From the NCBI RefSeq assembly GCF_023822005.2, contig NZ_CP098806.1, positions 3,534,001 through 3,598,000 of the forward strand: DNA of 64,000 nucleotides. The letters run 5' to 3'. The DNA is from Dyadobacter fanqingshengii (GTDB lineage: Bacteria > Bacteroidota > Bacteroidia > Cytophagales > Spirosomataceae). Both the position numbers and the translations under genes were made by a program. Below are positions 17,079 to 60,748 of the stretch, piece by piece (the stretch's first letter is position 1; each line of letters starts with the position of its first letter). A model generated the notes under the pieces. It worked only from the letters and a program-made list of their open reading frames with translations, was not told where the DNA came from and searched no databases.

Positions 17079-19196
17079 ATGGCTTTAATTACAAAAATCA
17101 GAGAAAAATCCGGGATCGCTGTGACGGTTATCGCGATCAGTTTAATTCTTTTTATGGTGGGGGGCGACTTAATGGGCCCAAATTCCATGCTTGGTGGGGG
17201 AAATGACCAGACTGTTGGTGAAATCGCCGGCAAAGAAATCAACATTAAAGACTTTCAGTCACGCGTTGACGGCTTCCGCCAGAACTATGAAGCACAGTCG
17301 GGACGCAGTCTTAATGAAAATGAATTGGCTTCGCTGAGAGATCAGGCCTGGAACCAGTTTGTTGTTGACATCGCTTACAAAAAAGAATTTGAAGATCTTG
17401 GACTGACTGTTACGGACCAGGAGCTGGTTGATATGGTTCAGGGAAATCACATAAGCCCATCGATTCTACAAGCTTTTTCTGATCCTACTACTGGTAAATT
17501 TGATAAAAACGCCGTTGTTAACTATCTGAAAAATCTCAAAACGCTTCCTGTTGAGCAACAAAAATCATGGGAGAATTTTGAGAAAAGCCTTCGTGAAGAG
17601 CGCACACGTGCCAAATATGAAAACATGCTGAAACTTTCGACTTACATCCCGAAAGCACAAGCTGAAAAAGAATATGTGGCTCAGAACAGCAAAGCAACAT
17701 TGCGTTACCTGTATGTGCCTTATTTCTCTGTTGTTGACACGACGATCAAAGTTACAGACAAGCAACTTGAAGATTATCTGGGCGCGCACCGCTCTGAATA
17801 CAAAGGAACCGATACGCGTTCAATCGAATACGTTACATTCCCGATCCAGCCTGCCAAAGACGACAGCGCTGCATTGTATTCTGAAATTAAAGAACTTGCC
17901 CGCGGCCTTGCCACTGCAACAAACGATTCCGCTTTTGCAAGCATGAACTCGGACATTCCCCTTCCGATTAATATGTCACTGGGAACCATGTCTGACCAGT
18001 TGAAAGAAGCTGTGAAAACATTCGTTCCGGGTGGTGTTTACGGTCCTTACCGCGAAGGCAATACTTATTACATTTACAAATACGGTGGAACGCGCGTAGA
18101 TACAGTTGCTTCTGCAAGAGCAAGTCACATTCTGATCCGTGCTGAAAACCAATCTGATTCTGCGAAAGCTGCGGCTCGTACCAAGGCGGAAGGCATTCTT
18201 GCTCAGATTCGCGCCGGTGCTAATTTTGAAGCGCTTGCTGCAACAACCAGCGCCGATCCACAGTCTGCACAGCGTGGAGGCGACCTGAGCTATTTCCAGA
18301 ACAATGGTCAGATGGTTAAGCCTTTCGAAGAAGCTGTTTTCTCTGCAACTGCTCCTGGCCTGATCCCAAGATTGATAGAAAGCCAATTTGGTTTCCACAT
18401 TATCAAGGTAACCGATCCAAAATCGAACACATTGTACCGAATTGCAGCCATCGGAAAGACGATTGCCCCAAGCCAGGCAACACGTGACGAGGCTTATCGG
18501 AAGGCTGACGAATTTGCTAACACTGTAAAAACGAAAACGGCATTTGACGAAGCGGTTAAGAAAAATAAGGCATTGGTTGTCGCCAACGCAAACCGTATTC
18601 CTGAGTCTGCAACGAACATTAATGCAATCCAGAATGGCCGTGATATTGTTAGATGGGCATTTAAGGATGATTCAGACATTAACGAAGTATCTCCGGTTTT
18701 CGAAACTGAGGAACAATATATCGTAGCGGTCTTGGTTGGCAAGTCTGACGCGAAGGATGTAAAAGTTGCTGACTTCCACGACGAACTGACAACGAAAGTG
18801 CGTAACCAGATCAAAGCTGAGCAGATCACTGCCAAGCTGAAAGGCGCAACGGGCGACCTTCCTGCCATTGCTGCAAAATACGGCGCGGGTGCATTGGTTG
18901 AGAACGCAACGGACATTTCCCTTGCAACCGGTTTCCTTACCAGCGCAGGATTTGATCCTATCGCATTGGGTAAAGCATTCGGCTTGAAACCGGGTCAGAA
19001 ATCAGGTGTTTTCACTGGCGAGAATGGGGTGTTCATTATGGAACTGGTTAGCAAAACAGAAGCGCCTAAAGTCGCTGATTATACGCAGTACAAGACGCAG
19101 CTGACGCAATCACTGGAAAGCCGCATGTCATATCTCGTGAACGAAGCCATCCGCGAGAATGCGAAAATTGAAGATCGCCGCGCGAAGTTCTTTTGA
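17079..19196 (+). CDS. PpiD/SurA-like peptidyl-prolyl isomerase (periplasmic foldase)
   Basis: Membrane-anchored periplasmic chaperone of 705 residues. One N-terminal membrane segment (residues 10-30, GIAVTVIAISLILFMVGG) is followed by a SurA_N-type helical domain (about 45-190) with RVDGFRQNYEAQSG. A parvulin PPIC domain starts near residue 345 with ASHILIRAENQ and ends with FGFHIIKVTD. The rest is a large helical C-terminal region. The layout is that of PpiD, which helps newly exported outer-membrane proteins fold; with four SusC barrels in this window such a role is plausible. A strong terminator follows 19 bases downstream. Confidence 0.92.
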   Translation: MALITKIREKSGIAVTVIAISLILFMVGGDLMGPNSMLGGGNDQTVGEIAGKEINIKDFQSRVDGFRQNYEAQSGRSLNENELASLRDQAWNQFVVDIAYKKEFEDLGLTVTDQELVDMVQGNHISPSILQAFSDPTTGKFDKNAVVNYLKNLKTLPVEQQKSWENFEKSLREERTRAKYENMLKLSTYIPKAQAEKEYVAQNSKATLRYLYVPYFSVVDTTIKVTDKQLEDYLGAHRSEYKGTDTRSIEYVTFPIQPAKDDSAALYSEIKELARGLATATNDSAFASMNSDIPLPINMSLGTMSDQLKEAVKTFVPGGVYGPYREGNTYYIYKYGGTRVDTVASARASHILIRAENQSDSAKAAARTKAEGILAQIRAGANFEALAATTSADPQSAQRGGDLSYFQNNGQMVKPFEEAVFSATAPGLIPRLIESQFGFHIIKVTDPKSNTLYRIAAIGKTIAPSQATRDEAYRKADEFANTVKTKTAFDEAVKKNKALVVANANRIPESATNINAIQNGRDIVRWAFKDDSDINEVSPVFETEEQYIVAVLVGKSDAKDVKVADFHDELTTKVRNQIKAEQITAKLKGATGDLPAIAAKYGAGALVENATDISLATGFLTSAGFDPIALGKAFGLKPGQKSGVFTGENGVFIMELVSKTEAPKVADYTQYKTQLTQSLESRMSYLVNEAIRENAKIEDRRAKFF

Positions 19197-19215
19197 GCAA
19201 TTCAAAATTTTTATC

Positions 19216-19257
19216 AAAAAAGAGGAGCAGAAATGATTTCTGCTCCTCTTTTTATTT
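19216..19257 (+). terminator. Strong terminator after the foldase gene
   Basis: Stem AGAGGAGCAGAAA / TTTCTGCTCCTCT with a loop of a few bases, followed by TTTTTATTTT. AAAAA on the other side makes it able to work on both strands. Confidence 0.92.
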
Positions 19258-22990: not shown

Positions 22991-25900
22991 TTATAAACCA
23001 ATGTTCAAACCGAGCATGAAAACTCTTGGCTTCGGATAATCGTACAAGCCGAATCCCTGGTCGAAAGGTGAACCTGAGTTAGAAACTTCGGGGTCATAAC
23101 CCTTGTATTTGGTTGTCACGAAGAAGTTCTGAACCGAACCGTAAACCCTCAAACGGTCCAGTTTAAGCCTCGAAACCACAGTAGCAGGGAAAGTGTAAGC
23201 AAGCAGCAGGTTGCGTCCGCGGATAAATGAAGCATCGGTCACCTTGTGGCTGTCATTATTAGTCGTGTAATAGGCGTTGATCGGACGCACCTGCGCGATC
23301 GGCGTGTTCTGATTGGTTTCTGTCCAGGCATTCAGCACCGTTTTGTAGCTGTTTGCAATGCCTTGCCTGTCCTCCGCAGAGTGGATACTTCTGTCAAGGA
23401 CATCATTGCCGTACATATATTGCAAGTCAACCGTCAAGGACAATGCTTTGTACTGGAATGTGTTAAGGAATGTTCCAAAACCGTCGGGAATTCCTTTTCC
23501 AATGATCGCACGGTCATTATCATTTATGGCACCATCATTATTAAGGTCCTTGTACTTGACATCACCAGGCAGCATGTTGTATTTTTTGGCCACCTCGGCT
23601 TCTGCCGTAGACCAGGTTCCTTCATGAACCCGCCCGAAGAACGATCCAACCGGCTCTCCTACCCGCACAATCGTGTTTCCCGAAAAAATGTCACTGCCTC
23701 CCGAAAGCGCCAGCACTTTATTTTTGTTCACGGAAATATTGAATGTCGTGCTCCATGAAAAATCACCACTCTTGATGTTCGTAGAATTCACTGCAAATTC
23801 AACACCCTTGTTCTCCATGCTGCCGACATTGGTAAAAATGCTTCCATAACCGCTGCTCAACGGAAGCGGCGCATCCAGCAACATTTTGTTTACTTTTCTT
23901 CTGTACAGATCCAATTCGAAGCTGAGTCTGTTGGAAAGTAATCCCAGTTCTATACCAAAATCCACCTGCTGTGTTTTTTCCCACTGAAGATTCGAATTTG
24001 ACATACGGTTGACCCCAGTTCCAATGTTCCGGACACCTCCAAAAATAACGTCATAGCTCTGTAAACCTGCCAAAGCGCGATAAGCCGGAATTTCAGAGTT
24101 TCCTGTCGCTCCATAGCTCGCACGGATTTTCAGGTTGGAAATGGCAGCCACATTTTTAAGGAATTCTTCTTCACTCACCCGCCAGGCCAGTGCCGCAGAC
24201 GGGAAGAATGCATAACGGTTGGCATCCCCGAACTTGGACGAACCATCCAGACGACCGGTGAATGTTACCAGATATTTATCCATCAGGCTATAATTAAGCC
24301 TTGCGAAGTAAGAGTTAAGTCCGTAGGCAGAAGCGCTGGAAGTTGGCGCCAGTGCCGTTGCTCCTGCACCGAGGTTATTGAACTGAAAATAAGTGTCCGT
24401 AAAATTCTGGCTTCTCGCAGCATTGTCGAAACGGTCCACGTGCTGCCACGATAATCCAAGCACCGCGTTTACAGAATGTATTTTACCAAATTCCTTTGCA
24501 TAGGTCAGGTAATTTTCAAACTGCCACGAGTTGAACCTTCTGCTGGTTATGGAAGCGTCACCATTATTAGAAATGTATTGAAGGCCAGCCGCCGCAAAGT
24601 AATCTTCGCGCTGATTGATCACATTGGTTCCAACTGTTGATCTCAGTTCGAGTCCATCGGCCAGTCTGATGCTAGCATACATATTTCCAAGCATTGTTTG
24701 CGTCCGCAGGTAGAAAAGGCGTTCTGCAACAACCCTGAGCGGACTATCGCCTCCTTCCATGCCCGGGTAATCCCTATTACTGGCCCATTTGCCGTCAGGG
24801 TATTTTACAGGGATAATAGGCAATGCTTCCAAAACCTGGCGCATAGCTGTGATCCCGCCGCCACCCAGCTGGTCAATTTGCTTTTCATTCTGATCTGTAT
24901 AACCCAGCGTTCCGCCCACTTTCAGCCAACTCTTGATCTGGCTATCGAATACAAAGCGGCCAGCGAAACGTTTCTGCCATGATTCGCGTGCAATCCCGTT
25001 TTCATTGCGGTAATTTAAAAAAGCGCCATAGCTGCCTTTTTCGCTCCCGCCCGTCAACCCAAGCTGGTGATTTTGGGTAAAAGCTTTTTGGAATGTTTCA
25101 TCCTGCCAGTCGGTGTCATAAAGCGGATTGCCACTCGAATCGAAAAGCAATGGATTGGTCCGCTTCAACTTTGGGTCGGTATATTTTGTGCCGGTAGCCC
25201 AACCCACGGGATCATATTTTGCAGCATTGGCATAAAGGGTTTCTTCTACTTGCAGAAACTCTCTCGAATTCAAAACAGGCAATTTTTTTGGCACAACACC
25301 AATGCTGAAATCGCTGTCATAAGTCACTTTACCACCGCCCGATGTTCCGCGCTTGGTCGTAACCAGGATAACGCCATTGGCACCGCGCGCACCGTAAATC
25401 GCTGTGGACGAGGCATCTTTCAAAACTTCAATAGAAGCAATGTCATTGGGGTTAATGTAATCAATGGGCGTACTTCCGTTTCCAAGCTCAACTGCATTCA
25501 GGATCACTCCATCGATGACATATAGCGGGTTATTGGACACTGAAATGGAGCTCGCTCCACGGATGCGGATGTTCGCACGACCACCCGGACGACCCGAGTT
25601 GGATGAAACATTCACCCCGGCAATGCGGCCCGAAAGTCCCTGATTCAATGATGAGGCTGGTCTTTCCTGCAAAACTTCACCTTTGATGGTTCCTACGGCC
25701 CCGGTAAGGTCGGATTTTTTTACCGAGCCATAACCCACAACAACGATCTCGTCCAGCGCATTTTCGTCAGGCAGCATAGCCACATCAATGCTCGACTGGC
25801 TCCCAACCGTAACTTCCTGCGATTTATAACCTACAAAGCTCATTACGAGCACATTCTGTCCACTTCCATCCGGAATGTCCAGTGTAAATTCTCCTCCCGA

Positions 25901-26461
25901 ACCTGTTGAAGTCCCGCGTTGCGTTCCTTTTAAAACCACGCTCACACCTGGCAAGCCGCTTCCCGCTTCGTCTGAAACCTTACCTTTAATGGTCCTGTCA
26001 ACGGCTGCCTGTTGCACAGTGGTCGGGAAAGTTACCGTTTCAGGGCTGAGGATCTGCTCGGGTAAAGCGCCGGATTCCTTCGCTTCTTCTTTTCCTGGAA
26101 CAACCTCTTTCGCTTTAAACTCAGTGATTACAAAAGTATTTTTCCTCGTCTTTTTGAAAGTCAAACCATTCTGTTGCAATAGTAACCCGAGATTTTTTTC
26201 AAGTGACTGATTGAAATCCAACATACCGGGGGCAACATTGACCGATCGTACGAGCCGGTCTTCGAAAATGATCTCCACTCCATAATGTTTCTGCAAGTCC
26301 AGTAATACGTTTTTGAGCTTCATTTCCTGACCAAAAGCGTGGTGCTGTTTGGTGGGAATGGAAGCGTAAGCGATAATCTGGGAGTGGGCAACCAGCGAGG
26401 ATTGCGTCATCAGCACAATCCCGATCGCTGCCCATTGTTTAGCTGATAGCGTTATATTCAT
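22991..26461 (-). CDS. SusC/RagA-family TonB-dependent transporter with STN signalling domain
   Basis: Outer-membrane transporter of 1156 residues. After the signal peptide comes an STN domain (about residues 48-115, LKNVLLDLQKHYGVEIIFED), the piece that touches FecR. A linker follows, then a carboxypeptidase-like beta domain (from about 157, RTIKGKVSDEAGSGLPGVSV), a TonB-box-like EIVVVGYG, a plug with EVLKDASSTAIYGARGANG, and the barrel. The ATG at 26461 is used; a TTG two codons earlier is the only alternative. fecR ends 22 bases upstream, so unlike the other two regulated systems there is no leader space for a separate RNA element. Confidence 0.95.
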   Translation of the reverse strand: MNITLSAKQWAAIGIVLMTQSSLVAHSQIIAYASIPTKQHHAFGQEMKLKNVLLDLQKHYGVEIIFEDRLVRSVNVAPGMLDFNQSLEKNLGLLLQQNGLTFKKTRKNTFVITEFKAKEVVPGKEEAKESGALPEQILSPETVTFPTTVQQAAVDRTIKGKVSDEAGSGLPGVSVVLKGTQRGTSTGSGGEFTLDIPDGSGQNVLVMSFVGYKSQEVTVGSQSSIDVAMLPDENALDEIVVVGYGSVKKSDLTGAVGTIKGEVLQERPASSLNQGLSGRIAGVNVSSNSGRPGGRANIRIRGASSISVSNNPLYVIDGVILNAVELGNGSTPIDYINPNDIASIEVLKDASSTAIYGARGANGVILVTTKRGTSGGGKVTYDSDFSIGVVPKKLPVLNSREFLQVEETLYANAAKYDPVGWATGTKYTDPKLKRTNPLLFDSSGNPLYDTDWQDETFQKAFTQNHQLGLTGGSEKGSYGAFLNYRNENGIARESWQKRFAGRFVFDSQIKSWLKVGGTLGYTDQNEKQIDQLGGGGITAMRQVLEALPIIPVKYPDGKWASNRDYPGMEGGDSPLRVVAERLFYLRTQTMLGNMYASIRLADGLELRSTVGTNVINQREDYFAAAGLQYISNNGDASITSRRFNSWQFENYLTYAKEFGKIHSVNAVLGLSWQHVDRFDNAARSQNFTDTYFQFNNLGAGATALAPTSSASAYGLNSYFARLNYSLMDKYLVTFTGRLDGSSKFGDANRYAFFPSAALAWRVSEEEFLKNVAAISNLKIRASYGATGNSEIPAYRALAGLQSYDVIFGGVRNIGTGVNRMSNSNLQWEKTQQVDFGIELGLLSNRLSFELDLYRRKVNKMLLDAPLPLSSGYGSIFTNVGSMENKGVEFAVNSTNIKSGDFSWSTTFNISVNKNKVLALSGGSDIFSGNTIVRVGEPVGSFFGRVHEGTWSTAEAEVAKKYNMLPGDVKYKDLNNDGAINDNDRAIIGKGIPDGFGTFLNTFQYKALSLTVDLQYMYGNDVLDRSIHSAEDRQGIANSYKTVLNAWTETNQNTPIAQVRPINAYYTTNNDSHKVTDASFIRGRNLLLAYTFPATVVSRLKLDRLRVYGSVQNFFVTTKYKGYDPEVSNSGSPFDQGFGLYDYPKPRVFMLGLNIGL

Positions 26462-26483
26462 AGTCAATTGATTTAGGTATTTA

Positions 26484-27491
26484 TTAATTCTTTAAAAGGA
26501 TCGTATCACCGTTTTGCTCGATTTTCATGTCTAGAACTGCTGAAACCGTCTTCAAAAGTTCATCGGCATTCTTCGTTTTGAAATTTCCCGTAATGGTGCG
26601 CTGCGCCATTTCTGCATTGGAAAGCTTCACTTTCTGACCAAAATTCTCGTCAATCATTGCCACGATCTCTTTCATGGAAGTTGAATTAAAAACATAGCGC
26701 TGCTCTTTCCAGGTGGCAAATGTGTTGGTATCCTGCTTTTTTGCCAGTTTTACAGCTCCTGCATGGTCCACAACCGCCAGGTCACCCGGTTCCATCATCA
26801 CTTCCTTGCGCTCATTGTTTTGGGAATAATCAATGCGCACGCTGCCGCTTTTCAAAGCCACCTTGGTCCCTCTCGGCCGGGCGAAAACAGAGAATGTTGT
26901 CCCCAGCACTTCCACCTGAAACTGATCCGATGTTTTTACTACAAACCGCTTATTATCAATGGTATGACTCACCGAAAATTCTGCCTCACCTTCCAGAACC
27001 ACATTTCTGACTTTGTCATCGAAGCCGAATCTTGGAATTCTCAGCTTTGAGTTGGAGTTAAGCGCAACCCGGCTGCCGTCTTCCAGATACACATCCGTCG
27101 TTTGCCCGTAGGCTGTCTGATAGGTTTTGTATTGAAGCGGTTCGCGAAACCACCAGCCAAATCCGACAAAGAATGTCACCGACGCGGCCATCAGCCAAAA
27201 ACTATTGGAGCGGGCTGAGAAAAAGTTGGGTTTTGGATTTTGTAATGGGGATTTTGCAAATTCTACCGTTGGTGCAATGTCCGTTTCCAGACGATGCAGC
27301 AAAAATTTGATCGCGGCATCCTGGTCCGGGACAAACTGAGGGCTTCTCATCTCGTATTCCATCAGCCATTGGTTGAAGGTTTCCGCGTTCTCCGTTTCGC
27401 GGATCCAGTCTTCGACCAACTGTCGTTCCAGCGGATTGGCTCGTCCCGCCAGATACTCGAACAGCGTATATTTCGATATAATTGTTTTCAT
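26484..27491 (-). CDS. FecR-family anti-sigma factor
   Basis: Inner-membrane regulator of 335 residues that holds the ECF sigma factor from 27562-28227 and receives the signal from SusC. Order: cytoplasmic N-terminal region with LERQLVEDWIRETENAETFNQW (about 18-39), one membrane segment (FWLMAASVTFFVGFGWWF, near residue 95), the periplasmic FecR domain (GQTTDVYLEDGSRVALNSNS, GEAEFSVSHT, FVVKTSDQFQVEVLGTTFSV) and a C-terminal STN-like domain (IVAMIDENFGQKV). The ATG at 27491 begins the family-typical N terminus; an in-frame start at 27539 would add 16 poorly fitting residues. Confidence 0.93.
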   Translation of the reverse strand: MKTIISKYTLFEYLAGRANPLERQLVEDWIRETENAETFNQWLMEYEMRSPQFVPDQDAAIKFLLHRLETDIAPTVEFAKSPLQNPKPNFFSARSNSFWLMAASVTFFVGFGWWFREPLQYKTYQTAYGQTTDVYLEDGSRVALNSNSKLRIPRFGFDDKVRNVVLEGEAEFSVSHTIDNKRFVVKTSDQFQVEVLGTTFSVFARPRGTKVALKSGSVRIDYSQNNERKEVMMEPGDLAVVDHAGAVKLAKKQDTNTFATWKEQRYVFNSTSMKEIVAMIDENFGQKVKLSNAEMAQRTITGNFKTKNADELLKTVSAVLDMKIEQNGDTILLKN

Positions 27492-27561
27492 AATATTTTC
27501 AGTTCGACGTGTGACTATGGCCCTGTCAGGTTTGGTCATCAGAGTTAGATGAGGGTCAAAT

Positions 27562-38200: not shown

Positions 38201-38531
38201 AAACCTCATATTGTAACCCCAATGGCGTCAATATCTGGTCCAGGACTTCGTATAATGGCTTTTCAGTGGCGCTAACCGTCACCTTTCTGGCCGACTTGAT
38301 CAATTTGGAGCTGAATACGAACCTTACATCCACTTGCTTCTCAACCTGGTTCAGGACTTTCCTTACTTCACTGCCCGTGGCAACCACCGTAATCTTCTGA
38401 GAAAGAAGCGACTGTGCGTGACTGTCGTGGGCAAAGCCGGTTCCAATGAACCATACGGCAAATATCAATTGTGTGGCTGTTATTCGCATCGTCCAAAGTA
38501 ATACCTGGCGGTATTTAAAGGGTTTTTTCAT
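35223..38531 (-). CDS. SusC/RagA-family TonB-dependent transporter with STN signalling domain
   Basis: Outer-membrane transporter of 1102 residues. A signal peptide ends near residue 40 (HDSHAQS), then comes an STN domain (about 43-110: VRKVLNQVEKQVDVRFVFSS). The carboxypeptidase-like domain starts at LTGKVVDETNTPLPGVSIVV, followed by ELVVVGYGVVKK, the plug with EILKDASATAIYGSRGANG, and the barrel ending IGLRIGF. ATG 38531 gives the expected N terminus; the open frame continues to a TTG at 38612 that would add unlikely residues. The leader between it and fecR holds the antisense terminator described separately. Confidence 0.95.
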   Translation of the reverse strand: MKKPFKYRQVLLWTMRITATQLIFAVWFIGTGFAHDSHAQSLLSQKITVVATGSEVRKVLNQVEKQVDVRFVFSSKLIKSARKVTVSATEKPLYEVLDQILTPLGLQYEVSGKIIILKRQDALPTELPAKGISPKRNLTGKVVDETNTPLPGVSIVVKGTQTGTTTNGDGGFELDVPDNAVLVLSFVGYVTKEIPVENQSVINVTLEADVRALNELVVVGYGVVKKSDLTGSVASIKSTELNAYPATNLMQSLAGRATGVQISQNTGAPGSPISVRIRGTNSVQGGNEPLYVVDGFPYSGNPTLLNNADVESIEILKDASATAIYGSRGANGVVLITTKKGKSGRVSVDLDTYVGFQKPRKKIEMMNAKEYAQFYNEQASNDGLAPHFTQDEINSLGEGTDWQDLALQTAAIQNHSVSVNGGNEKTRFSVSGSNFNQGGIIIGSDYVRNSVRANLSTDFSKKFKFDINTILSRIDSDRKNTEGGNRGSSLVSAMLSGYPTVAPLTPEGNYSNLATIYSWGSNVITNPLNFIEQQSDHIRSNKVLANGALTYMPFEGLSIKISGGIENTDDRTDTYTTKKFVNSLGSAGIYTTQTTSLLNENTVSYVKEIGKHNISAVAGFTYQDLTTTQLNTTGSGFVSDIQESFDIGAAATQGVPFSTYSKWSLLSYLARFNYSFNDRLLATVSFRADGSSRYTEGQKWGYFPSGSIAYRLSEEDFIKNISFISDLKIRVGYGETGSTAINPYFTLNQLASGKVVFGDALTTYYAPGLRLAGPLKWETTSQSDIGLDIGFLQNRFSLTLDYYIKNTRDLLNNVPLPSSLGYGYTINNVGKVQNKGFEIAANANILSGKFKWDVSANASINKNKVLKLYGGNDVLGEAINISVINDNINVLREGESIGAFYGYVEKGYDETGKIVYEDYNNNGTRDIGDKRIIGNPNPKLIYGFNSNMSFKNFELNVFVQGSKGNDIFNLSSVNQTMDYGQALNMPREVFENHWTPTNTNAKYPLITGKVSQAQVSNRFVEDGSYLRVKNIQLSYNLPIKDIKWLTNAQIYVSGQNLITFTKYSWFDPEISSYGGSNSIRMGIDHYSYPTAKTTTIGLRIGF

Positions 38532-38543
38532 AGATTTGATTGT

Positions 38544-38661
38544 TTTGTTAAGATTTGAAAAACTGGCAAAACGATCCCTGCCTCCCCTAAGGAGGAAAAT
38601 GGCGACAACCAAAGGGATTTATTTGAGCCGGTGATGCGGGAACATTGCCGGCTCTTTTTTT
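38544..38661 (+). ncRNA. Candidate antisense RNA opposite the third susC leader
   Basis: A plus-strand RNA of about 118 bases is inferred. The box TAGATTTG (38531-38538, exact TAnnTTTG) overlaps the complement of the susC start codon, and a canonical terminator with seven T ends at 38661. No plus-strand coding gene leads into that terminator. The RNA would cover the whole susC leader and ribosome-loading site. The 5' end is a guess because no -33 element is visible. Antisense RNAs at this place (DonS type) are known in Bacteroides SusC systems run by ECF sigma factors. Confidence 0.4.
38625..38661 (+). terminator. Plus-strand hairpin with T7 in the susC leader (first copy)
   Basis: Twelve-base stem GAGCCGGTGATG / CATTGCCGGCTC, including two G-U type pairs, loop CGGGAA, then seven T. 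It is oriented for the plus strand, opposite to every gene nearby. On the minus strand the order is A7, stem, loop TTCCCG, stem, with no T run after it. A second copy with a different stem but the same loop form lies at 58722-58756. Confidence 0.75.
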
Positions 38662-38741
38662 AGGTTAATCTTTCTGTTTCTTATTCGAATATTTAGCTAG
38701 CGGGTTTAAATTATATTACTGATTTACAATGTCTTGTATGG

Positions 38742-55110: not shown

Positions 55111-58100
55111 TTAGATTGAAAGATTGATCCCAACGTTGACAAACTTGTTCTGCGGATATTGCAGCCCGTTATCATCCAATACTTCGGGATCAATGCCAAA
55201 TTCTTTCACATTGTCAATTGAGAATAAATTGTAGCCATTGATGTAGACCCTGGCGCGTTGCAGTTTTACTTTTTCCAACAGCGTTTTTGGCAAAGAATAA
55301 CCCAGTTCAATGGTTCTGGCGCGGATATACTTCACATTATGCAGCCAGAAAGTTGAATTTCTCTTGTAATTGCTGTGTCCGCCATCGTTGTAGCGAAGCG
55401 CGGGATATTTTCCGGGAACCCACTCACTGTTGAGGTCAAAAGGATCCTGACGATGCCATCTGTCGAGGAATATTTTGTTCAAAGCACCATCATTCTGATA
55501 AGCCCATCTTTGCTCCCAGTTCTGGTTCCAGGAATACATGGCACCACCGGAAAAGTCTGCATTAAAGCTTATTCCTTTCCAGTTGACTGCAAAATTCAAC
55601 CCGAAATTAATGTTTGGCTGGCCGTTTGTTGTGTAACCGATCGGGCGCTCGTCCAGGCCGTTGATGACATTATCGTTGTTGATATCTTTATAAATCAAAT
55701 CACCCGGCAGCAATGTGCGGTTGCCTTGTTCATCGATGTTAACCGGATACTCATTGATCTCCTGCTGCGACTGAAACTGCCCGATTGCCTCATAACCCCA
55801 GAAAATGTTGCTGTAACGGCCCTCATTGGAGTTTCTGTATTGATCCCAGGAGTTGTTGAAAACGGGTTTATAGGAAGAAACGAACTTAGTGCGGGAGAAC
55901 GACACATTGCCACCCATTGAATAGCCGATATCGCCCGATTTTCCATTGTAGGTCAATGCCAGTTCCCATCCCGATTGCGAATCACTGTTCACGTTTTCGT
56001 CTGGTAAAGCATAACCCAACTCACTGGGAACGAGTAAGTCATATTTCCGGCCCAGTAATCCTGTTCTTAACCGGTAAAAATAATCCACTGAACCCGTCAG
56101 CTTTGTTCCGAGCAAGGAAAAGTCTGCGCCTACGTCGGTAATTTTACTTTTAAACCAGGAAATGTTGTTAATAATCTGACCTTTATCACGAGACGTAACC
56201 ACTGCCGTTCCGCTCAAAATCGCATTTCCCTGATTGTAATTATAACCCGGCAAATAAGCATACGGATCCAGCGGGCGGTTTACATCATTGTTAAAAAGAA
56301 TGTTGTCATCCCCCAAAATCCCATAGGAAGCACGCAGTTTAAGATCATCCAGCAGGCTGTGCGAACCCAGCAGATTTTTCACAAATGACTCCTCTGTCAA
56401 TCTCCAACCCACAGACGCGGATGGAAAATAACCGACCCGGCGATCCGGCGCAAACTTCCAGGATGCGTCGCGGCGGGCGGACAACTCCACGTAATATTTG
56501 CCGGCATAATCGTAATTTACCCTACCGATATAGCCTATACGCGCGAGCTGATTATCCTTGTCGTCATATGTGTCCATCGTCGCGAAATACATCAAGGGAA
56601 GCACATTGGTTTTGGGAACCGAGTGCGCCCATTGCTCCTGATCGCGCTCTTCCTGGCGCTCTGCTACGAAAGTGGCGCCAATGGTGCTTTTGCCAAAAGT
56701 GTTGTTATAGCTCAATTGCCCCTGGTAAACATTGCGCATGATTTTCTGCGTGCGCCTTTCCCGCCAAGGGTTCGTGCTTCCGCCGGTTACTTTGTAAGTG
56801 TCGTCCGTCGGATTATAGGTGTAAGCTTCGTAAGTATATTCGTGTCCATTCAAAACACGGTCCCCGATGTAATAGGAGTACATTCCTTTGGCAACCAAAC
56901 CTTTAACGCCAGGGATCTTATATTCAGCGGTCATGTTGGTTTGCAATACGCGCCAGATGTCAGTCTGGTAACCACCCAATTTTTTGTTGTTATACGCCCA
57001 GTTGGTCTCATTATGCTTGATATCGTTGAGATACAGTGGGTTATCATTGGCATAAGGACGCTCGAACGGCCGGTTTCTCAGAATGGCGAAACGCGGCAGC
57101 CAATAATCGTCGCTGCCGGGTATGCCGGGCTGGTCCCTGGTTTCAATGCGCCCGTTGATCTGGACTCCGACTTTCAAACCATCCGTAATCTTTGCGTCAA
57201 CATTACTTTGCAGGTTGTTTCTGTTAAATGTAAACTCACGGCCCAAAACCGAATTCTGGCTCAGGCGCGTTGCCGAAATGTAATAGGATATCTTGTCCGA
57301 GCCACCCGTCATGTTCAGATTTACGGATGTGAGCGGCGAATTTTTCTTCACAATATAGTCCTTCCAATTGAAGCTCTTATAACCCATTTCTGTTCCGGCT
57401 TTGTACTTATCGAGTTCGGTTTGGGTGATGGAGGTTTTACCATACTGATTCATTTCCGCCTCTGCTTTCCCGAGCATCCATTGGTAAGAGTCGTTCACCA
57501 CATTCGGAAATCTCGACCAGTTTTGCCAGCCCGTGTACGCGTCCAGATTAATCGTATTCTTCGTTCCCGTCTTCCCTCTTTTCGTTGTAACCACCACAAC
57601 GCCATTTGCTGCACGAACCCCATAAATGGCCGCAGAAGCGTCTTTCAGAACGGTTATGCTTTCAATATCATTAGGTGAAATGTTGTTAAACTGCTTATCG
57701 TCCTGCTGAATTCCATCAATGACAAAGAGCGGATTTCCCATGTTCCTGATCTGCACCGTAGCGCTCGCTCCCGGGCGACCGTCAGGCATCCTGAATGTTA
57801 CGCCTGGTATTTTTCCGGCCAGTCCCGAGCTCACCGTTGAGCCACCATGCACACGATCCAGGTCCTTGCTCGTTACTGTTGCAATTGCTCCGGTTAACGA
57901 TTCCTTTTTTTGCGTTCCATAACCCACTACAACAACTTCTTCCAGCGATTTGTCGTCCACTTTCAATGTTACATCGAACGTGCTTTGCGCACCCGTAACC
58001 AACACTTCTTGCGACAAAAAACCAACAAAAGAGAATATCAGCGTGGTTTCACCGTCAGGAACCGTGATCGAGTATTTTCCTTTTTCGTCCGTTAATGTTC

Positions 58101-58614
58101 CGGTTTGCGTGCCTTTGAGCACCACACTTACACCCGGCAAGCCTGCGCCGGATTCTTCCTTAGCCGTTCCGGTTATCGTTTTATCGATGGTCAAATCTGT
58201 TGATTGAGAAACTGCCGGCTCCGTCTCCATCCCGACAATTTTCTCAGTCTGACTATCGGGCCGGATGACGATAAGGTTATTTTTTGCCTTGTAATGCAGC
58301 TCCATAGGCTTCAAAAGTGCATCCAACACATCCGCTAATGCACCGTTTTGGGCCCTTATGGACGCTCTTCTGTCGGACTGGATCAGTTTGGAACTGAAAA
58401 CGAATTTTACATTGGTTTGCTTTTCCAACTGCCCGAGGATCTTCTTAATGTCCTCGTTCTGAATGTCAACCGTAACTTTCTGGCTCAATGCAGATTGAGC
58501 TCTTCCATCATGTGCCCACGATATGCCTACAAAGAGACCTGCCAGGATGCATTGAATAAATGTTATTCGCATGAGTGTGATGAGAAAGTCTTCAAGTCGT
58601 CGAACTTTTTTCAT
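55111..58614 (-). CDS. SusC/RagA-family TonB-dependent transporter with STN signalling domain
   Basis: Outer-membrane transporter of 1167 residues. After the signal peptide (cleaved near GRAQS) comes an STN domain (about 45-115: IKKILGQLEKQTNVKFVFSS). It is followed by a carboxypeptidase-like domain (ITGTAKEESGAGLPGVSVV), EEVVVVGYGTQKK, the plug with TVLKDASAAIYGVRAANG, and the barrel ending NVGINLSI. The ATG at 58614 fits; an internal MRITFIQ start is possible. Its 253-base leader contains the second antisense-type terminator and a small inverted repeat AAGTAA/TTACTT (58691-58708). Confidence 0.95.
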   Translation of the reverse strand: MKKVRRLEDFLITLMRITFIQCILAGLFVGISWAHDGRAQSALSQKVTVDIQNEDIKKILGQLEKQTNVKFVFSSKLIQSDRRASIRAQNGALADVLDALLKPMELHYKAKNNLIVIRPDSQTEKIVGMETEPAVSQSTDLTIDKTITGTAKEESGAGLPGVSVVLKGTQTGTLTDEKGKYSITVPDGETTLIFSFVGFLSQEVLVTGAQSTFDVTLKVDDKSLEEVVVVGYGTQKKESLTGAIATVTSKDLDRVHGGSTVSSGLAGKIPGVTFRMPDGRPGASATVQIRNMGNPLFVIDGIQQDDKQFNNISPNDIESITVLKDASAAIYGVRAANGVVVVTTKRGKTGTKNTINLDAYTGWQNWSRFPNVVNDSYQWMLGKAEAEMNQYGKTSITQTELDKYKAGTEMGYKSFNWKDYIVKKNSPLTSVNLNMTGGSDKISYYISATRLSQNSVLGREFTFNRNNLQSNVDAKITDGLKVGVQINGRIETRDQPGIPGSDDYWLPRFAILRNRPFERPYANDNPLYLNDIKHNETNWAYNNKKLGGYQTDIWRVLQTNMTAEYKIPGVKGLVAKGMYSYYIGDRVLNGHEYTYEAYTYNPTDDTYKVTGGSTNPWRERRTQKIMRNVYQGQLSYNNTFGKSTIGATFVAERQEERDQEQWAHSVPKTNVLPLMYFATMDTYDDKDNQLARIGYIGRVNYDYAGKYYVELSARRDASWKFAPDRRVGYFPSASVGWRLTEESFVKNLLGSHSLLDDLKLRASYGILGDDNILFNNDVNRPLDPYAYLPGYNYNQGNAILSGTAVVTSRDKGQIINNISWFKSKITDVGADFSLLGTKLTGSVDYFYRLRTGLLGRKYDLLVPSELGYALPDENVNSDSQSGWELALTYNGKSGDIGYSMGGNVSFSRTKFVSSYKPVFNNSWDQYRNSNEGRYSNIFWGYEAIGQFQSQQEINEYPVNIDEQGNRTLLPGDLIYKDINNDNVINGLDERPIGYTTNGQPNINFGLNFAVNWKGISFNADFSGGAMYSWNQNWEQRWAYQNDGALNKIFLDRWHRQDPFDLNSEWVPGKYPALRYNDGGHSNYKRNSTFWLHNVKYIRARTIELGYSLPKTLLEKVKLQRARVYINGYNLFSIDNVKEFGIDPEVLDDNGLQYPQNKFVNVGINLSI

Positions 58615-58626
58615 ATTTTTGAATGA

Positions 58627-58756
58627 ATTTGTTGGTTAAGGAGATTATTCAACGAAATCTTCCCTTGCATTCACCGCAAAAGTGGATGTAAAGTAATGTC
58701 AGTTACTTGGGGGAATCCTGAGATCAGCCATGCTGGAACATGGCTGGTCTTTTTTT
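58627..58756 (+). ncRNA. Candidate antisense RNA opposite the fourth susC leader
   Basis: A plus-strand RNA of about 130 bases is inferred. TATTTTTG (58614-58621, exact TAnnTTTG) touches the complement of the susC start codon, and a terminator with seven T ends at 58756. No plus-strand gene leads into it. The layout repeats that at 38544-38661: same distance class (about 95-110 bases) from start codon to hairpin and the same relation to fecR. The 5' end is not fixed by any -33 element. Confidence 0.4.
58722..58756 (+). terminator. Plus-strand hairpin with T7 in the susC leader (second copy)
   Basis: Eleven-base stem GATCAGCCATG / CATGGCTGGTC with one wobble pair, loop CTGGAA, then seven T. 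Compared with 38625-38661, most stem bases differ yet pair, while the ATG/CAT closing pairs, the loop CnGGAA and the T7A end are kept. Confidence 0.75.
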
Positions 58757-58867
58757 ATGTCAAATCGGGTAGGTTTATGTCATAAGCAGCGGCATTTAAA
58801 TTTGAAAATGTTGATTATACGTCCGGCAATTGTTTAACAAATACTTCTCTAAGACTACTTCGGTCAT

Positions 58868-60043
58868 TTACTTACAACCTTTTCCTATAATCGAAACCTG
58901 ATTTTCATTAACCTCGTATTGTGCATCCAAAGCATTACAGATCGCTTCCAGCTTTTCTTTGAACGGCTGACCAATCAGCGTTGCATTCAACGTGCAATTG
59001 GCCATTTTTACCTTATCATAACTGATTTGCACATTGTAGACGTGCTCCAAGGTCCGGAACACTTCATGAATGGGTGTTTCATCAAAGACAAAACCTTGTT
59101 TCAGAATATCCATATCCACGGCCAGTTCCTTGATGTGGTCATCCAGTTTAATGATTTTCCCGCTTTCTTTTGAAAATGCTATTTTCTGATCCTGACTAAG
59201 TGTAATTCCAGTCAGCGCCGGTTTATCTGATTCCTCGTCGATTTCCTTTTTATCCAGATTATTGATTGAAAAAACGGATACGGTTCCTGTTTTCACCTCC
59301 ACGCGTATGTCCTTATTTGCTTCCGATGCGTCAATCATAAAACTGGTCCCCAACACTTTGGTAGCCAAACCGTAAGTATAAACCAGAAATGGTTTTTCGC
59401 GATTTTTTACAATTTCAAAAAACGCCTTACCAGTCAGTGTAACTTCCCTCCGCTTCGCATTGGCAACTTCCGAATAACTCAAATGTCCACCCGGCTGCAA
59501 AACCACTGAGCTGCCATCTGCCAGCAGGATCGTCATCGGCTTTTTGGTATCATTATTCCTCTGAACCATGCCCGTGTAGGCGTTTTGTTCAACAGCTGCA
59601 ACTTCACCGGCACGCCCTAATCCCTGTTTATAGTAAAACCAATAGCTCACCGATCCGATGCCCAATATCAACGCCGCAGAAGCCGCAACCCTGATCCAGC
59701 GCCAACCTGAAACCACTCTGGCCTGAGTGGCCGGCTCATCGATTTCTGAAAATTCGCTGGACTGACTGTGCATTTGGCTCTCAACAGCATTCCACATGCG
59801 CTCACTCTGTTTTTTCGTTGGCTGATCTCTGCCGGTGTCCCTGGCGAGCAGGATTACATATTCACGGGCGGCTTCAACTGTCTGTTTTTTATCAGGATTA
59901 TTTTCCAAAAAAATTTGCCACTTTCTATCGCTTAAAGCGTCGGGATGCATCACCCATGCGATAAATTCATCGCTTCGGATCAATTCCGTCAGAGAGTAAG
60001 GGTCATGCGTCATATCAAAGGGATGCAAAATTTCGTCTTTCAT
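58868..60043 (-). CDS. FecR-family anti-sigma factor
   Basis: Inner-membrane regulator of 391 residues. N-terminal cytoplasmic domain with FIAWVMHPDALSDRKWQIFL (about 28-47), membrane segment VAASAALILGIGSVSYWFYY (near 119-138), periplasmic FecR domain (MTILLADGSSVVLQPGGHL, GKAFFEIVKNREKPF, GLATKVLGTSFMID) and a C-terminal domain with FDETPIHEVFRTLEHVYNV. A second ATG ten codons in (60013) is possible. It is 63 bases downstream of the sigma gene and 253 bases upstream of susC. Confidence 0.94.
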   Translation of the reverse strand: MKDEILHPFDMTHDPYSLTELIRSDEFIAWVMHPDALSDRKWQIFLENNPDKKQTVEAAREYVILLARDTGRDQPTKKQSERMWNAVESQMHSQSSEFSEIDEPATQARVVSGWRWIRVAASAALILGIGSVSYWFYYKQGLGRAGEVAAVEQNAYTGMVQRNNDTKKPMTILLADGSSVVLQPGGHLSYSEVANAKRREVTLTGKAFFEIVKNREKPFLVYTYGLATKVLGTSFMIDASEANKDIRVEVKTGTVSVFSINNLDKKEIDEESDKPALTGITLSQDQKIAFSKESGKIIKLDDHIKELAVDMDILKQGFVFDETPIHEVFRTLEHVYNVQISYDKVKMANCTLNATLIGQPFKEKLEAICNALDAQYEVNENQVSIIGKGCK

Positions 60044-60106: not shown

Positions 60107-60748
60107 CTAAAAAATGCCTAACAAGCAGAAAATGAGACTTGAAATAAGGAGAATTTGCCGGTTAAGGCGAAGGGAAGTAAGTGCTTTATAAATGAAATTG
60201 CGGACTGACTTCTCGCTTACACCCATGATGCCGGCGATTTCTTCAATGCTGAAATCATCAAAATATCGCAGTGTCAGCGCTTCAACTTGCCGCTCGGGAA
60301 GCTGTGCAAGTAAATTTTGGATTTGTCTAACCCTTAATGATGCAGACTCGACGTCAATAAGTAATGTTTCCGAGTTTCCTCCATTGGCCGGAGTTTCCTG
60401 GTCTGCCAACAGGGTAATTTCTTCCGTAACCGGAAATTTATCCCGGGCCAGATGAATTCTCCTGCGCAGCGCACGATAGAGGTAAAATTTGACGGAGGTT
60501 ATTTTATCGGTGAGGTTATTGCGCAATCGCCAGACATCAATAAAAACATCCTGGACTGCATCTTCGACGATGGCCGAGTTTGGGGAGAGTTTGCTTCCGT
60601 AGTTGTAAAGCGTGCGGTGGTATTTTTCGAAAATAATGGTAAATGCCTGCTCATCTCCTTCACGGATTCGCTGCCATAACTGCTGGTCCGTTTTTTCCCC
60701 GATGAAGGCCTCAAAATTAATCACCGCTTTGTCCGTTTTTACTAACAA
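60107..60748 (-). CDS. ECF-type RNA polymerase sigma factor with non-ATG start
   Basis: FecI-like sigma factor of up to 213 residues. Region 2 is at about 30-100 (DEQAFTIIFEKYHRTLYNYG, VEDAVQDVFIDVWRLRNN), region 4 at about 135-190 (LPERQVEALTLRYFDDFS, IEEIAGIMGVSEKSVRNFIY), and the end is hydrophobic (LLISSLIFCLLGIF). No ATG is available before region 2: the frame opens with TTG at 60748, with a GTG at 60724 as alternative, and is closed by TAG upstream. An out-of-frame ATGCCTTGTTAG overlaps the TTG. Weak starts suggest low expression. It heads the region-6 cascade. Confidence 0.9.
   Translation of the reverse strand: MLVKTDKAVINFEAFIGEKTDQQLWQRIREGDEQAFTIIFEKYHRTLYNYGSKLSPNSAIVEDAVQDVFIDVWRLRNNLTDKITSVKFYLYRALRRRIHLARDKFPVTEEITLLADQETPANGGNSETLLIDVESASLRVRQIQNLLAQLPERQVEALTLRYFDDFSIEEIAGIMGVSEKSVRNFIYKALTSLRLNRQILLISSLIFCLLGIF

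Follow-up and report, generated by a model that had tools for sequence, protein, structure and literature searches.

A putative DonS-like antisense RNA gene with its promoter box on the susC start codon at fecR-susC junctions of Dyadobacter

The element at 58614-58756 of the window (by which we mean the whole stretch of 64,000 nucleotides analysed here) is most probably the gene for a DonS-like, cis-encoded antisense sRNA and, by analogy, a putative repressor of the adjoining susC gene. Both the transcription of this RNA and the repression of susC are what we infer from the observations below. The original prediction had recognized in this place an antisense terminator hairpin under selection for RNA structure. 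The terminator is correct, but it represents only the 3' end of an element that as a whole appears to be an antisense RNA gene (Table 1). The start that had been given for the finding, position 58614, coincides with the first base of a promoter-like box, which had gone unmentioned.

The window lies in a genome of 6.27 Mb. We found 21 related fecR loci, 19 in Dyadobacter and two in Spirosoma, the best of which is 90% identical and comes from Dyadobacter psychrophilus; sequence relatedness places the source genome near this species. In both copies of the element that the window holds, the element is located between fecR and an STN-domain susC-type receptor gene, with a sigma-factor gene beyond, and matches to Pfam FecR and FecR_C confirmed that a fecR gene precedes both hairpins. 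The hairpins themselves were found where they had been proposed, at 58722-58756 and 38625-38661, with the loops CTGGAA and CGGGAA and, in both copies, the ATG/CAT closing pairs and the T7A. Each begins approximately 95-110 nt upstream of a susC start, provided that in the second copy the distance is counted from the ATG at 38531, the position of the box, and not from the TTG at 38612 of the mechanical ORF list. The idea of a "same loop" holds for these two copies but only partly beyond them, since the loops differ in other family members. The window also holds a third fecR/susC pair (fecR 26484-27539, susC 22991-26467, locus L015), which has a gap of at most 22 nt and is without the antisense element.

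Table 1. Positions of the two elements, their predicted parts and the genes next to the first copy
Feature	Position	Strand	Basis
susC-type TonB-dependent receptor gene, presumed target	55111..58614	-	STN, CarbopepD_reg_2 and Plug domains
fecR-type anti-sigma gene	58868..60043	-	Pfam FecR and FecR_C
sigma-70 family (ECF-type) factor gene	60107..60748	-	ORF and domain match
TATTTTTG, putative antisense promoter -7 box (TAnnTTTG)	58614..58621	+	sequence; kept in 21 orthologous loci
Predicted antisense RNA, ~131 nt, covering the complement of the susC 5' leader	58626..58756	+	predicted from the box (5' end) and the T run (3' end)
5' hairpin P1	58628..58656	+	fold and covariation
Junction closed by P2 (58660-58665 with 58710-58715)	58660..58715	+	fold and covariation; P2 less certain
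P3 hairpin, enclosed by P2	58666-58690	+	fold and covariation
P4 hairpin, enclosed by P2	58691-58708	+	fold and covariation; less certain
Terminator hairpin and T7 (the hairpin of the original prediction)	58720..58756	+	sequence, terminator scan, G.U/A.C counts in the orthologue stem
Conserved block TTATGACATAA, candidate part of the susC promoter	58775..58785	-	conservation peak
TAGATTTG, putative -7 box in the second copy, overlapping the susC start-codon complement	38531..38538	+	sequence
Predicted antisense RNA, second copy, ~119 nt; terminator 38625-38661	38543..38661	+	R1 match, fold

We assessed the fold in two alignments. In a sequence-only alignment of 22 orthologues, 91.1% of the cells pair as compared with 88.2% in column shuffles, a value reached by 0 of 500 shuffles. 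Controls in which the partners were slid gave 32-51%, a comparison in which the proposed structure is favoured because it was derived from one of the 22 orthologues. Both sides change in 11 of 46 pairs versus 7.7 in shuffles (14 of 500 reach this number), and the count of further pair types, one of five measures, was 32 and lies below the 36.5 of the shuffles. The second alignment, of 68 family members (67 of them distinct), was fitted to the covariance model and hence to the fold; it has 38 pairs out of 40 with changes on both sides, and 89.8% of its cells pair versus 72.0% in shuffles. As orthologues and paralogues are related, our counts are not independent. The paired changes on which the original prediction relied are thus also present when more copies are aligned. 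The orthologues conserve both ends of the RNA well and the region of the P3 loop less (0.58-0.62), and conservation drops past the T run from 0.95 to 0.60 and 0.57. The element has no match among the 4227 Rfam families, either at the gathering score or at E values up to 1. For the whole window there were no Rfam matches at the gathering cut-off, and none of the four sub-threshold matches falls on the element. A separate near-symmetric hairpin at 19215-19255, which follows a gene ending at 19196, weakly matched an unrelated Rfam family from plastids on either strand and is probably a bidirectional terminator.

The box at the upstream end of the element corresponds to TAnnTTTG, which passages of two papers describe as the -7 box used by the housekeeping sigma factor of Bacteroidota, placed at -12 to -5 (PMC7366714, PMC9723704). 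In both copies the box starts on the last base of CAT, the complement of the susC start codon. The predicted 5' end at 58626 was derived from the box using the -12 to -5 spacing given in a passage of the latter source (PMC9723704), and the housekeeping-type promoter is a candidate recognized by the -7 box alone.

To place the two copies within their own genome, we collected 18 fecR genes (FecR_C, E value cut-off 1e-9), each of which adjoins a CarbopepD_reg_2 match of a receptor gene. From a total of 132 CarbopepD_reg_2 matches, 30 were taken as loci, consisting of seven linked to fecR and 23 controls, the latter drawn from 114 receptor matches without fecR. Antisense terminators were found in 12 of the 18 junctions, 67-145 nt upstream of the susC start, where shuffles led us to expect 0.7, and sense-strand terminators in none of the 18, which bears out the contention that the hairpins do not lie there by chance. 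The upstream regions of the 23 receptors without fecR contained no terminator (Fisher p 2.4e-6); this control scan used a stricter energy cut of -12 kcal/mol, which all 12 own-genome hairpins also pass. Five of the six junctions without a terminator have gaps of 48 nt or less, and the sixth (L013) one of 101 nt. The box overlaps or touches the start codon in nine of the 18 junctions, in eight at the exact place and in one shifted by a single base, and is missing from the other nine. Two junctions of this genome, L002 and L005, possess a strong antisense terminator without the exact start-codon TAnnTTTG box and without a model match; perhaps they use a different promoter or are diverged copies.

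The original prediction had suggested a search with a covariance model for clustering between fecR and susC. We built such a model (R1) from the orthologues of the 58626-58756 copy alone. In 39 sources from the own genome it found six paralogues, all full length and antisense at fecR-susC junctions (E 2.4e-7 to 3.3e-4), among them the second copy (38542-38662, E 2.4e-7). Five weaker matches (E 0.03 to 7) lie on the opposite strand of the same places, and the 23 control regions yielded no R1 match. Across the genus, 40 of 41 genomes match, that is 39 of the 40 other genomes, with 96 matches in total, two of them in the window and 94 outside, of which 89 were read. Like the two copies in the window, all 89 are antisense to and divergent from a susC-type gene, just upstream of its start, and 87 have fecR upstream, so that the hits do cluster at these junctions. 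The exact box, which lies outside the model, is found at both window copies and in 75 of the 89 matches, and 13 of the remaining 14 carry TAnnTTTA. When run on the own genome, a second model (R2), built from the 68 family members, placed its top ten matches at ten fecR-susC junctions, of which the three lowest-ranking were weak (E 0.03 to 0.57) and lay outside the training rows. Within the Spirosomataceae, R2 has matches in 112 of 150 genomes and in 27 of the 36 genera sampled; all 32 family loci that were read are antisense before a susC-type gene, 30 with fecR and 28 with the exact box.

Which of the two strands is the RNA decides between an antisense transcript and the main alternative named at the outset, a - strand structure in the susC mRNA leader that would act as an attenuator, a stability hairpin or a protein-binding site. 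What pairs as G.U on one strand becomes an A.C mismatch on its complement. For the 22 orthologues, the sequence-only alignment shows 61 G.U and no A.C cells in the terminator stem, with G.U occurring in eight of 13 pairs, and 29 G.U and no A.C cells, originating from two pairs, in P1; in the fitted alignment the corresponding counts are 112 to 3 and 72 to 11. The changes in the terminator stem therefore pass via G.U on the antisense strand and not via A.C, which argues that the antisense strand is the selected RNA. Only on the + strand is the hairpin followed by a T run, and this is also the direction in which the promoter box, at its fixed place, is oriented. The + strand of the first copy also folds better (-47.6 kcal/mol, z -5.1) than its - strand (-31.5 kcal/mol, z -3.1), with a smaller difference between the strands in the second copy (-39.1 kcal/mol, z -3.3, versus -33.6, z -2.7). 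These same values show that the - strand, which also forms the terminator stem, beats its shuffles, as a leader structure would. The middle helices, with G.U to A.C counts of 12 to 8 in P2 and 19 to 5 in each of P3 and P4 in the sequence-only alignment, change their balance in the fitted one, where P3 has 22 to 14 and where P2 (11 versus 34) and P4 (23 versus 31) show no G.U excess and would rather favour the leader. The two end helices thus favour the + strand, which is antisense to susC, and the middle helices are indecisive, perhaps through misalignment between subfamilies. With the asymmetry in the terminator and the 5' helix, the fold energies, the T run and the box all against it, we consider a leader structure quite unlikely. 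A further strand count of 24 G.U to 0 A.C over 12 paralogues was discarded as evidence because the hairpin finder admits G.T but excludes A.C.

Two other explanations were considered. The promoter and terminator could form an insulator that blocks stray antisense transcription from susC before it reaches fecR and the sigma gene, or could merely interfere with the susC promoter, leaving the RNA inert. A terminator ahead of fecR would serve such a role and the promoters apparently converge, but an insulator has no need of the covariation seen in the 5' hairpin and P3, and a promoter kept at one place would be a source of antisense transcription and not a block to it; we regard this explanation as unlikely. 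It is also conceivable that the box is a by-product of the translation start (CAAAnnTATG), as Bacteroidota starts are A-rich upstream and this raises the chance of a box, and that the hairpins end chance antisense transcripts. Against this, the box is found at the ATG in only two of 39 window genes, which are the two susC genes concerned (57 ORFs were listed, and those not used overlap others on the opposite strand or in another frame or run off the end), and it is absent from the start region of all 23 susC-type genes without fecR (Fisher p 1.4e-4). Its exact placement in eight of the 18 own-genome junctions compares with 0.03 expected from shuffles, and its two free bases vary among the orthologues while the other bases are kept. 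We regard an origin as a by-product as very improbable.

Outside the Spirosomataceae, the arrangement extends further than the fold. R2 matched eight of 296 genomes in a scan of the phylum, three of them inside the family; the matches outside were mostly chance, with one of five (L209) at a fecR-susC junction. From 69 junction loci of the phylum, five were left out because susC or a start could not be located or because the gap measured 959 nt. Among the remaining 64, those of other families with a gap of at least 90 nt showed an antisense terminator in 24 of 36 cases (0.7 expected) and a sense terminator in one, the exact box in 13 (0.07 expected), and box and terminator together in 10, versus a terminator in one of 28 and a box in none of 28 junctions with shorter gaps. 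The families differ, f4, f5, f6 and f7 having both box and terminator and f23 neither (0 of 11). When applied to 36 loci, R2 gave weak antisense matches inside the junction in 10 (E 5.5e-4 to 0.91) and one elsewhere, from which it follows that the fold may be older than the Spirosomataceae.

From 34 plasmid records of named species, 26 were taken and 25 analysed (L286 has no susC adjoining fecR). The exact box lies on the ATG in six of the 25 junctions, from Bacteroides finegoldii (L287), Phocaeicola massiliensis (L292) and Parabacteroides distasonis (L294, L296, L298 and L311); antisense terminators are present in 10 and sense terminators in two. Box and terminator coincide in four (L287, L296, L298 and L311), where the layout of L287 and L311 requires a start upstream of the annotated one. 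In the 26 records, R2 clearly matched two junctions, both of Spirosoma oryzicola (L308, E 1.7e-6; L309, E 2.5e-7), and one Parabacteroides junction at E 0.015. The records of Hymenobacter (two), Haliscomenobacter, Fibrella, Persicobacter and Spirosoma rhododendri have neither box nor terminator. Three further Parabacteroides distasonis fecR-susC junctions (L295, L297 and L299) contain an antisense terminator and a TAnnTTTG box that lies off the ATG, and for this reason were not counted as the same layout; possibly they encode the same kind of RNA with the promoter elsewhere in the leader.

If the element is an antisense RNA gene, a housekeeping-sigma promoter with its -7 box within the complement of the susC start codon would fire away from susC, and the transcript of ~131 nt would cross the complement of the susC 5' leader and end before fecR, folding into the 5' hairpin, closed junction and terminator for which covariation was seen. 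A susC transcript that starts at a sigma-controlled promoter opposite would carry in its leader the complement of this RNA. We place that promoter tentatively at the TTATGACATAA block on the susC strand, ~20 nt past the antisense RNA, because its conservation of 0.88 stands between values of 0.57 and 0.47. CTATGA blocks occur 20-36 nt beyond the antisense RNA at 23 of 89 loci versus 1.6 expected, which is no more than suggestive of a motif of the susC sigma-factor promoter. The susC leader would then begin just outside the antisense RNA and be covered by it to ~12 nt from the start codon, with two convergent promoters bracketing ~130 bp. By analogy with DonS, either pairing of the RNAs or head-on interference and polymerase collision between the convergent promoters may lower susC expression, the likely purpose being to keep the transporter silent until its own sigma factor is switched on.

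One may speculate further that much of the phylum follows a rule by which FecR/sigma-run transporters carry an antisense RNA gene whose promoter physically lies in the start codon of its target. The Spirosomataceae RNAs, as one paralogous structured family with several members per genome, could then also target one another's susC leaders in trans, or rely on a common RNA-binding protein, and in this way rank the transporters that compete, although we judge this broader proposal to be rather doubtful. In any case, what began as a hairpin becomes a defined RNA gene with a predicted promoter, fold and target, and with a covariance model that finds further copies. If our reading holds, FecR/sigma operons across much of the phylum have long included antisense control of their SusC-type transporters, a form of control that would then not be peculiar to gut Bacteroides, and the place of the promoter on the start codon, being predictable from sequence, makes the role of PUL antisense RNAs testable in many free-living species.

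DonS and the DonS-like PUL-associated RNAs of Bacteroides were reportedly described by Cao et al. in 2016. As summarized in part of a later source, DonS of B. fragilis is representative of cis-antisense RNAs of 78-128 nt that are divergent to susC homologues and lower their expression (PMC7366714). Like this family, the Dyadobacter RNAs would be short, antisense and divergent to a susC homologue at the susC leader, and transcribed from a housekeeping-type (sigma ABfr) promoter; their predicted lengths of 131 and 119 nt, with ends taken from the box and the T run, compare with the 78-128 nt stated there. The lineages differ, DonS belonging to the Bacteroidales (gut Bacteroides) and the Dyadobacter RNAs to the Cytophagales, a soil relative, yet the combination of a box on the start codon and an antisense terminator also occurs in the DonS lineage, at fecR-susC junctions of Bacteroides finegoldii and several of Parabacteroides distasonis. 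The Dyadobacter RNA has a covarying fold which R2 recognizes in the Spirosomataceae and weakly elsewhere, and DonS was compared by its description. In B. thetaiotaomicron, 32 PUL-associated antisense RNAs are mentioned in a passage of PMC10994844, some of which anticorrelate and some correlate positively with their susC; by analogy, the positive correlations would count against a repressor. GibS and FopS of Bacteroides thetaiotaomicron are described, in part of PMC11697453, as sRNAs that repress susC-type transporters near the translation start, but they are encoded at other loci and regulate several targets in trans through a common 5' seed, whereas the Dyadobacter RNA is encoded opposite its own presumed target. 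In the open-licence literature we found no published report of such RNAs in Dyadobacter or other Cytophagales. A DonS-like RNA is thus known as a kind and, as far as we have searched, what is new is a structured, covarying family in the Spirosomataceae with its candidate promoter fused to the start codon of the susC gene that it would control.
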